42,623 nucleotides of DNA. Source: Candidatus Equadaptatus faecalis. Its GTDB lineage: Bacteria > Synergistota > Synergistia > Synergistales > Synergistaceae. Below, in pieces: positions 4,099 through 6,157 of the stretch. Numbering within the stretch: the stretch's first letter is position 1; the number at the start of each line of letters is the position of its first letter. The notes below the pieces were generated by a model that saw only the letters and a list, made by a program, of their open reading frames with translations, did not search any database and was not told the origin of the DNA. Location: the NCBI GenBank assembly GCA_018065065.1, contig JAGHTZ010000039.1:1-42623 (forward strand). The letters run 5' to 3'. A program made the translations under genes and the position numbers.

Positions 4099-5055
4099 TC
4101 AGAAGAAGTTCTTTTTCCAGAGAATTATAACCGTTATGACTGATATGAACAGCGCAAGCAGCAGTGCGTAAAGAAATCCCAGCGGATTTCCCGCCCACGG
4201 CACCGGCACGTTCATTCCCCAAAGTCCCGAAATCATTGTCGGTATAGCAAGAACAATAGTTACCGAGGCAAGGAATTTCATAACTATGTTCAGATTGTTT
4301 GAAATGACGGAACCGAAAGCGTCCATCATTCCTGTGAGAACGTCCGCCTGTACCTGAGCCATTTCTATGCCCTGGTCGTATTCAATGCGTACGTCGTCAA
4401 GCAGATCCTCGTCTTCCTCGCGTATTTTGATTATGTGCGCCAGCTGCGGGTTAGAGCAGACACGCAGCAGACGTTCGATAACGACCTTGTTTGAGCGGAG
4501 CGATATTGAATAGTAGGTCAAACCTTTCTGCAGTCCGAGCAGCTGAAACAGCTCCACGTTTTTCATTGAGCGGCGCAGATCTTTTTCAATCTCGTCAGAT
4601 TTTCTCGTTATCTGGCGCAGGTCTTTCAGAAAAAGCGCTGCCGAACAGTAAAGCAGCTGGAACAGAAAACGAGTGCGTTTGAAGGTTGAAAACGCCCTGT
4701 AGCGGTTTCTTGCAAACGGGTCAAATACGGCGTTGTCCTTCTGGCAGATGGTTACAATGTAATCAGGCGTTACGACTATGCCAAGAGGAATAGTGTCGTA
4801 TTCGTCGCTGCCGGGCTCTCTGTCAACAGGAACGTTGACAAGAACAAGTATCTGGTCGTCTTCGGTTTCAATACGCGACGTTTCTTCAGGGTCAAGAGCG
4901 GCGCGTATAAAGTCCGACGGAGCGCCTGTAAGTTTTTCAATCTCACGCAGCTCGTCGTGCGTCGGATGAATGAGATTGACCCATGAACCGGGCTCTATCG
5001 TATCCAGCGTCAGCGCTGTGAGCCCTTTTTCCATCGTTTTTAAGATTTCAAGCAT
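4099..5055 (-). CDS. corA: CorA-family divalent cation transporter
   Basis: A 318-residue inner-membrane channel of the CorA family, which moves magnesium and sometimes cobalt or nickel. A long cytoplasmic helical domain (about residues 1-255) is followed by two C-terminal membrane helices. The family signature GMN is present at residues 280-282 within WGMNVPVPW, between helix 1 (FLASVTIVLAIPTMISGLW) and helix 2 (FLYALLLALFISVITVIIL). The C-terminus is basic (WKKNFF). Length is normal. It is a single-gene unit with its own promoter at 5304-5332 and a long folded leader. Metal selectivity cannot be told from sequence alone. Confidence 0.92.
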   Translation of the reverse strand: MLEILKTMEKGLTALTLDTIEPGSWVNLIHPTHDELREIEKLTGAPSDFIRAALDPEETSRIETEDDQILVLVNVPVDREPGSDEYDTIPLGIVVTPDYIVTICQKDNAVFDPFARNRYRAFSTFKRTRFLFQLLYCSAALFLKDLRQITRKSDEIEKDLRRSMKNVELFQLLGLQKGLTYYSISLRSNKVVIERLLRVCSNPQLAHIIKIREEDEDLLDDVRIEYDQGIEMAQVQADVLTGMMDAFGSVISNNLNIVMKFLASVTIVLAIPTMISGLWGMNVPVPWAGNPLGFLYALLLALFISVITVIILWKKNFF

Positions 5056-5297
5056 GTGATTTCCCCCTGTCTGTACACGTCACAAACGAACGGCTGCACC
5101 GCTCATAAATGTATGTACTGAAGATAACGGGGTGAAAGAAAGGGAATTTTTCTTCACGCCCGGCGCCTGCCGGACGTGCGGAACAGTCCGGATCAGGCAG
5201 TGAACAATCGGCAAGACAACGGTTCGGAACCGTTACTACAACTGCTTTCCATTACTGCTCCCTTCTCCGGAGACAAACTCCGGCTGAAATTTATAGC
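5056..5297 (-). ncRNA. Long structured 5' leader of corA (candidate riboswitch or attenuator)
   Basis: About 240 transcribed bases separate the predicted start (near 5297) from the corA ATG. On the minus strand they contain several hairpins in order: CCGGAG-TTTGT-CTCCGG (about 5265-5282), a near-perfect palindrome AACGGTTCCGAACCGTT (5217-5233), and a two-part stem GCCTG/CAGGC enclosing CCGGAC/GTCCGG (about 5165-5198). The last is GTGAAGAAA pairing with TTTCTTTCAC (about 5132-5157). A GGGGG ribosome site lies just before the ATG. I could not match M-box, yybP-ykoY, cobalamin, TPP or NiCo consensus sequences from memory. Control of a metal channel by an RNA leader is well known for M-box, so a metal-sensing role is plausible but unproven. 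Confidence 0.5.
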
Positions 5298-5303
5298 CTA
5301 CAG

Positions 5304-5332
5304 ATTTTAAGCCACACTCACAAATTGGTCAA
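5304..5332 (-). promoter_or_regulatory. Consensus sigma-70 promoter of corA
   Basis: Minus strand TTGACC (5327-5332) and TAAAAT (5304-5309) with exactly 17 bases between. It defines a leader of about 240 bases in front of corA. Confidence 0.75.
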
Positions 5333-5375
5333 GTATGGATCATCAAAATTCGCCAATACGTCGTAAAACCATCGC

Positions 5376-5411
5376 AAAACTAAAAGCGGGATTATTCCCG
5401 CTTTTAGTTTT
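5376..5411. terminator. Bidirectional intrinsic terminator
   Basis: A 16-bp perfect stem, AAAACTAAAAGCGGGA against its reverse complement, with loop TTAT. It is A-rich at one foot and T-rich at the other, so it can work in both directions. It ends the OmpH-SPOR gene, whose stop is at 5429. Confidence 0.88.
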
Positions 5412-5428
5412 ATCGTGTTCAGAAAAAG

Positions 5429-6157
5429 CTATTTTGTAATAAAATTGCTTATTTTCCGCTGTGTCAACTGCGCCGATATCTGTTTTGCATCTGCTGTGTT
5501 TGCTGCAGGAATGCGCGCGCGCCAGATTTTTCTTCCGTTTTTGTCAACACCTTCACAGGTATAAGCATTGGAAAAACCGAGCTTTACGGCTTTGGCAACA
5601 AGTGCGTCAACACCGTCTTTATTAGGCGAAGAACCAAACTGAACCTGAACCGCTGAATTATTCTGTATTATCTGAACAGAAACAGGTTTTTGATCCGGCT
5701 GACTGCTTTCAGCTTTTCTGACAGGTTTTGCCTGTGCTTTTTGTGATTCTGCGGAATTGAGTTTCGCTATCACGTCATTTGTAATATCAATTCCCTTTTT
5801 GCCTGTTGCGACATCATATACGGCCTGAAGATTTTTTTCCTCAGCCACAGCGGCAGTCGCTTTCTGGATTTCAACAGATACAGGGAGAAAAAAGTCAAGT
5901 TGCTGTGCTTTGAGCTGTTTGCTACATTCCTCCGTCATCTGCTGTCTGCGGCTTTCATTTTTGGTTTGGCTACATCTTATGGACAGTTCCCGCATCTTTT
6001 GCTGCACTATTGCATTCCATGTTTTCTGCGCTTTTTTGTATGCGGAATAACTGCCACATACACGCTTCAAATCAACAACACCGTTTTGCGCAAATGCCGG
6101 TGCCGCAAAAAACATAACTGCCAAAATACAGACAAGACAATTCCTAACTGGGCTCAA
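5429..6157 (-). CDS. OmpH/Skp-like periplasmic protein with C-terminal SPOR domain
   Basis: A 242-residue exported protein. Residues 1-23 form a signal peptide ending AFAQ. Residues about 25-135 resemble OmpH/Skp: helical, rich in K, Q and E, and closing with the family-like motif KGIDITNDVIAKLN (121-134). After a proline/glutamine linker (140-160) comes a SPOR-like domain (about 162-242: VSVQIIQNNSAVQVQFG, then alternating strands and helices ending ISNFITK). Skp chaperones outer-membrane proteins; SPOR domains bind denuded peptidoglycan. The start is TTG at 6157, with AGGGG eight bases upstream; the only nearby ATG would truncate the signal peptide. It is a single gene with a strong terminator. 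The fusion is unusual; function is inferred. Confidence 0.72.
   Translation of the reverse strand: MSPVRNCLVCILAVMFFAAPAFAQNGVVDLKRVCGSYSAYKKAQKTWNAIVQQKMRELSIRCSQTKNESRRQQMTEECSKQLKAQQLDFFLPVSVEIQKATAAVAEEKNLQAVYDVATGKKGIDITNDVIAKLNSAESQKAQAKPVRKAESSQPDQKPVSVQIIQNNSAVQVQFGSSPNKDGVDALVAKAVKLGFSNAYTCEGVDKNGRKIWRARIPAANTADAKQISAQLTQRKISNFITK

Follow-up and report, generated by a model that had tools for sequence, protein, structure and literature searches.

The window, by which we mean the whole stretch of 42,623 nucleotides of Candidatus Equadaptatus faecalis DNA analysed here, carries on its minus strand a gene for a CorA-like Mg2+ transporter, with a leader of about 240 nt downstream of a TTGACC-17-TAAAAT promoter. 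The gene directly upstream of corA (5429-6157, minus strand) encodes a protein in which a SPOR domain comes after an OmpH-like stretch, a combination that is, to our knowledge, unusual. Since this upstream gene has its own terminator (5412-5375), corA is a separate transcription unit. The features of the locus are the following, where uORF stands for upstream open reading frame and SD for Shine-Dalgarno.

5375-5412, minus strand: intrinsic terminator of the gene upstream of corA
5304-5332, minus strand: sigma-70-like promoter TTGACC-17-TAAAAT, kept throughout the orthologue group (21 of 21 leaders)
5298, minus strand: approximate transcription start, predicted from the spacing to the -10 box
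5267-5283, minus strand: small hairpin CCGGAG-TTTGT-CTCCGG, 5' of the uORF
5254-5265, minus strand: SD region of the uORF, GAAGGGAGCAGT (arm 0), able to pair with sequence 3' of the uORF stop
5193-5252, minus strand: uORF of 19 codons plus TGA, MESSCSNGSEPLSCRLFTA, with orthologues in most related corA leaders
5218-5234, minus strand: 17-base palindrome AACGGTTCCGAACCGTT, read from the sequence, within the uORF
5186-5198, minus strand: arm 1, GCCTGATCCGGAC, overlapping the uORF stop; stem 1:2 at -19.0 kcal/mol, p = 0.015 against shuffles
5169-5178, minus strand: arm 2, CACGTCCGGC; covariation in stem 2:3
5152-5164, minus strand: arm 3, GCCGGGCGTGAAG; covariation in stem 2:3; stem 3:4 in the window at -15.6 kcal/mol, p = 0.06
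5129-5138, minus strand: arm 4, CTTTCACCCC, partner of arm 3 or possibly of the corA SD, the latter pairing modestly supported
5060-5068, minus strand: corA SD, AGGGGGAAA (arm 5), read from the sequence
4099-5055, minus strand: corA, CorA-like Mg2+ transporter of 318 aa with a GMN motif (Pfam PF01544, E = 1.6e-47)

A sequence-only reading of this stretch had proposed a consensus promoter, a structured leader, a 17-base palindrome and an 11-bp stem in two parts, all of which are borne out. The promoter occupies 5332-5304, and TTGACC-N17-TAAA[AC]T recurs 76-105 nt 5' of the uORF in 21 of 21 corA leaders of the family's orthologue group, the window included. The leader (5298-5056) folds at -92.7 kcal/mol against -72 ± 4.7 kcal/mol for dinucleotide shuffles (z = -4.37, rounded -4.4), and none of 200 shuffles folds as well. 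The palindrome lies at 5234-5218, and the two-part stem (GCCTG + CCGGAC with GTCCGG + CAGGC) is identical with stem 1:2. At the position of the small hairpin that precedes the uORF, relatives have hairpins of the GGGC..GCCC type.

The same reading held that no open frame explains the leader, and here it has to be corrected: the ATG at 5252, which follows GAAGGGAG, opens an ORF of 19 codons whose position and motif are conserved. As BLAST of the leader DNA found almost no homology, we compared the regions upstream of orthologous corA genes instead; the one foreign match (L002) was taken as chance, no corA being nearby in the stretch examined. Besides the window, 20 corA leaders of the family have a uORF with an SD at this position, as do leaders from four other families, and orthologues include MDSPSPSPEPQGRLANIF, MDASGPSPEPVGQ... 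and MESESSARPEPLCGHIR. The corA orthologues within the family have the promoter, the small hairpin, the SD and a uORF of 17-20 codons in common (MDSPSPSPEPQGRLANIF, MDASGPSPEPVGQSLLIFI, MDSSSPSPEPLERRVFIV), and more distant corA genes from other families of the phylum have uORFs such as MESESSARPEPLCGHIR, MEGDSPSTTVPRQSATPY, MESDSSSKVPLC... and others. These uORFs keep D or E at residue 2 and usually have E or D and a proline within the first 11 residues. In the family consensus, too, acidic residues and prolines come near the start of the peptide; the peptides of family f1 are rich in proline and serine, and those of families f3, f5 and f6 have acidic residues at positions 2 and 4. The peptide in the window is divergent, with E2, E10 and a single proline, and is intermediate between the type of its own family and that of other families.

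Comparative data suggest that the uORF is translated. The in-frame pN/pS is 0.27 in group g7 and 0.32 in families f5/f6, compared with 0.89-2.1 in the other two frames, and a less clear-cut 0.65-0.67 in two further groups with few changes in each. A pattern consisting of an SD, [AG]TG-GA., 12-35 codons, D or E at residue 2 and a proline soon after matches 39 of 74 corA and 19 of 30 mgtE upstream regions, against 1.9 and 0.9 for shuffles and 2 of 121 background windows; as the pattern was written after the motif had been seen, the weight rests on these controls and not on the hit rate. Within the family, the third positions of the CCTGAACC codons are fixed, so that a constraint at the RNA level must be present too.

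Downstream of the uORF, at a fixed place relative to its stop, lie arms that can form the mutually exclusive stems 1:2, 2:3 and, in long leaders, 3:4. Stem 2:3 was found in all 23 leaders in which arms were tested, and it is here that the comparison of corA leaders from related genomes, which the earlier reading had suggested as a check, revealed strong compensatory change: 17 cells changed on both sides in alignment A3 (5.9 ± 2.0 when shuffled) and 11 in alignment A2 (3.9 ± 2.4), with 88-95% paired in A3 and A2 versus 31-47% in slid controls. Stem 1:2 is better than dinucleotide-shuffled arms (p <= 0.05) in 16 of 23 leaders and stem 3:4 in 8 of 16; the combined Fisher p values (6e-14 for 1:2, 6e-9 for 3:4) assume an independence that does not hold and are overstated because the leaders are related. 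Little covariation is seen in stem 1:2 within the family because the stem is too conserved, being almost invariant with one compensatory change, A-U for G-C, in the window. We also considered whether the uORF SD pairs in general with the region that follows the stop (0:1). This pairing reaches -23.4 kcal/mol in the window (p = 0.003) and is significant only there, in g7 and g9 and partly in f7, and we regard it as clade-specific. Taken at the level of sequence comparison, the uORF and the alternative stems are well supported.

The genes that follow the element offer a clue to its signal. A covariance model built on the corA leaders of the family (R1) and run on 188 genomes of the phylum matched in 23 of them, in every case before corA; two of these matches are in another family, outside the training family. 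A second model (R2), trained on corA leaders only, namely those of other families plus the window, matched a uORF and hairpin directly before MgtE genes at G082:C9 (E = 2e-11) and G031:C11 (E = 9e-5), the identity of both genes being confirmed by the Pfam domains MgtE, MgtE_N and CBS. Another R2 match, at G038:C23 (E = 0.007), is probably spurious. By eye, about 26 of 30 mgtE upstream regions have a similar uORF (for instance MDSGTVPLSC..., MESGSVPLCSS..., MDQGAVPLG... and MEEGASPLR...), a count that also takes in uORFs not matched by the strict pattern. As proteins, CorA and MgtE have no relationship to each other, but Mg2+ is their common substrate, and the occurrence of the same element before both therefore points to Mg2+ as the signal. 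The link of the conserved uORF and alternative stems to Mg2+ transporters is likewise supported by these comparisons. The M-box was found in only one of the 188 genomes (L132, G047:C201:3688-3858), where it may reflect contamination or transfer.

We consider it most likely that the corA leader is a leader-peptide attenuator responding to Mg2+, the Mg2+ response being suggested by the genes controlled and by the resemblance of the peptides to known ones. The element would be coupled to translation and would not be a classic riboswitch: poor translation of the acidic and proline-containing peptide at low Mg2+ would turn the transporter on. We give this reading a probability of about two in three. 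A ribosome would start on the short uORF and, when Mg2+ is adequate, finish it; standing on the stop codon, it would cover arm 1, so that arm 2 would pair with arm 3 and corA would be turned down. Depending on the lineage, the OFF state could be brought about by arm 3 holding the corA SD, by a freed arm 4 pairing with the SD, or by an intrinsic terminator. At low Mg2+ the ribosome would pause or drop off early, at acidic and proline codons as described for MgtL; arm 1 would then remain free, stem 1:2 would form and corA would be expressed. Inferred parts of this scheme are which way the switch acts, that Mg2+ is its signal and that destabilization of the ribosome is its cause. The presence of the element before two unrelated kinds of Mg2+ transporter suggests that the ribosome itself senses Mg2+.

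An attenuator of the same architecture could instead sense another cue, such as charged tRNA-Pro, tRNA-Ser or tRNA-Cys, EF-P-dependent stalling or polyamines. The abundance of proline and serine in the f1 uORFs would suit such a cue, and Salmonella mgtP has been described as responsive to charged tRNA-Pro (PMC8092293). However, many members have few prolines (the window has one), whereas the acidic residue 2 is nearly constant, and a cue of this kind would not readily account for an element common to corA and mgtE; we find this alternative rather unlikely.

The earlier reading had spoken of a possible undescribed metal-responsive RNA, noting that the leader could not be fitted to the M-box, yybP-ykoY, cobalamin or NiCo classes. 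The lack of fit holds: in the window and 16 related loci, Rfam gave no match at the gathering threshold, and M-box (RF00380), Mg_sensor, yybP-ykoY, NiCo and cobalamin models gave none at their curated covariance-model thresholds; a relaxed threshold yielded chance-level matches to other families only. An RNA that binds Mg2+ or another metal directly, with the uORF incidental or secondary, would be compatible with the strong folding, the covarying stem, the metal transporter downstream and the nucleotides fixed in CCTGAACC within one family. Yet besides the Rfam result, we saw no unpaired core that the families have in common; they share a short ORF, in its start and its motif, and stems that change in sequence, and the arms keep their positions relative to the uORF stop. 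As far as sequences can tell, it is a translated uORF with competing stems that has been conserved, and not the core of a ligand-binding aptamer, which leaves direct metal binding improbable. What stands of the earlier proposal is a structured, conserved, covarying and undescribed RNA that very probably controls a metal transporter; its riboswitch sense is unsupported, because the likely sensor is the translating ribosome.

The output of the proposed attenuator seems to differ between lineages. In short leaders the corA SD lies inside arm 3 and is predicted to be 6-42% unpaired when stem 2:3 is formed and 29-99% once arm 2 is occupied. In long leaders, the window among them, arm 3 and the corA SD lie apart, and both are potential partners of arm 4, the pairing of arm 4 with the SD being plausible and weakly specific, as it is only slightly above that of swapped partners. 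A further output is seen in L032, L063 and L064, where a strong terminator with a U tail separates the uORF from corA, much as in a textbook transcription attenuator; the sequence that immediately follows the uORF stop can pair with the 5' arm of this terminator, and truncated folds can be read as containing an antiterminator. In each output type, the ON arm seems to be the one that comes first after the uORF stop. As this arm promotes expression and a ribosome on the stop codon would cover it, full translation of the uORF should mean OFF. In the window leader, no GC-rich hairpin with a U-run follows the arms between leader peptide and gene, and the output in this genome would be translational or Rho-dependent. 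In equilibrium folds of the window leader the corA SD is mostly paired for each of the ribosome states modelled, with no freed SD, so a switch would have to be co-transcriptional; the same folds would suit a conserved structured leader that does no sensing and only fixes the basal level of expression or the stability of the mRNA, but this is hard to reconcile with conserved, mutually exclusive stems and with a U-tailed terminator in one clade, and we think it very improbable.

The best reading of the leader, an attenuator that responds to Mg2+, is that it works like enterobacterial MgtL and CorL, but with an apparently different RNA and in a different phylum. The EPDP motif of MgtL, through its residues E2 and D4, makes ribosomes drop off when Mg2+ is low, and mgtA is thereby switched on (PMC11282234). 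The mgtA leader (PMC11282234, PMC11552253) shares with the element described here a short uORF with an acidic and proline-containing start, alternative structures and a Mg2+ transporter downstream; acidic positions 2 and 4 recur in families f3, f5 and f6, and full translation of the uORF lowers expression, as we infer here. In contrast, the arms are different and there is no detectable similarity at the RNA level (no Rfam match), Salmonella mgtA uses Rho while the relatives studied here would use the SD or an intrinsic terminator, and the element stands before corA and mgtE, not mgtA. Translation of corL represses corA in E. coli (PMC11552253), and the gammaproteobacterial corA motif (PMC11552253; PMC6429828) is likewise a structured corA leader with a uORF, in which corA expression falls as translation of the uORF rises, a relation that would have the same sign here. 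However, corL starts with UUG and the window uORF with ATG, and the published motif was found only in Gammaproteobacteria and metagenomic DNA. The mgtQ leader of Salmonella mgtCBRU combines acidic residues with SD masking (PMC8092293); this translation-aborting uORF also has stems 1:2, 2:3 and 3:4 and a masked Mg2+ transporter SD, but it has eight codons and is intergenic, its stem 2:3 is ON and 3:4 masks the SD, whereas stem 2:3 would be OFF here. Attenuators of the trp type resemble the element in their leader peptide and mutually exclusive hairpins, and in the U-tailed terminator of L032, L063 and L064; they differ in that no run of codons for a single amino acid is present here and no terminator follows the arms of the window.

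In the open-access literature searched (subscription journals lay largely outside its scope), sensing of Mg2+ by the ribosome, by way of a nascent peptide that destabilizes it, was described from enterobacteria only, and no such leader-peptide case was found outside Gammaproteobacteria. A survey of intergenic regions in a Synergistetes genome named the SLH motif as its only riboswitch candidate (PMC6429828). The broader proposal is that leader peptides sensing Mg2+ act on CorA and MgtE throughout the phylum, independently of MgtL/CorL and with the M-box nearly absent, their outputs having switched between SD masking and intrinsic termination in evolution; we would give it an even chance. If true, the ribosome would be a recurrent Mg2+ sensor, with a uORF attenuator before two unrelated transporter families, and dozens of natural peptide variants would be at hand to learn which residues matter.

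Some further leaders deserve mention. Outside the phylum, the corA relatives of Phascolarctobacterium (L033-L037) have no such uORF near corA. A group of corA paralogues whose products start with M/LISVLRTH-like sequences (L087, L090-L097) is without the leader, often with coding sequence close to its start. In one leader (L016, peptide MDAGGPSHSCKDDSNIL), the SPEP core is lost and start, stop and stems are kept. Two members of family f7 (L086 and L089) have a GTG-started uORF (MSTGDSPLSR...) of uncertain reading frame; sequence beyond its stop is complementary to the region of its start. Leaders with acidic and proline-containing uORFs stand before mgtE across the phylum (L133, about 450-565; L134; L136-L165), and some mgtE uORFs have a different second half (MEECHSTG..., MEMVSGDGPSS...) and may represent separate subfamilies.
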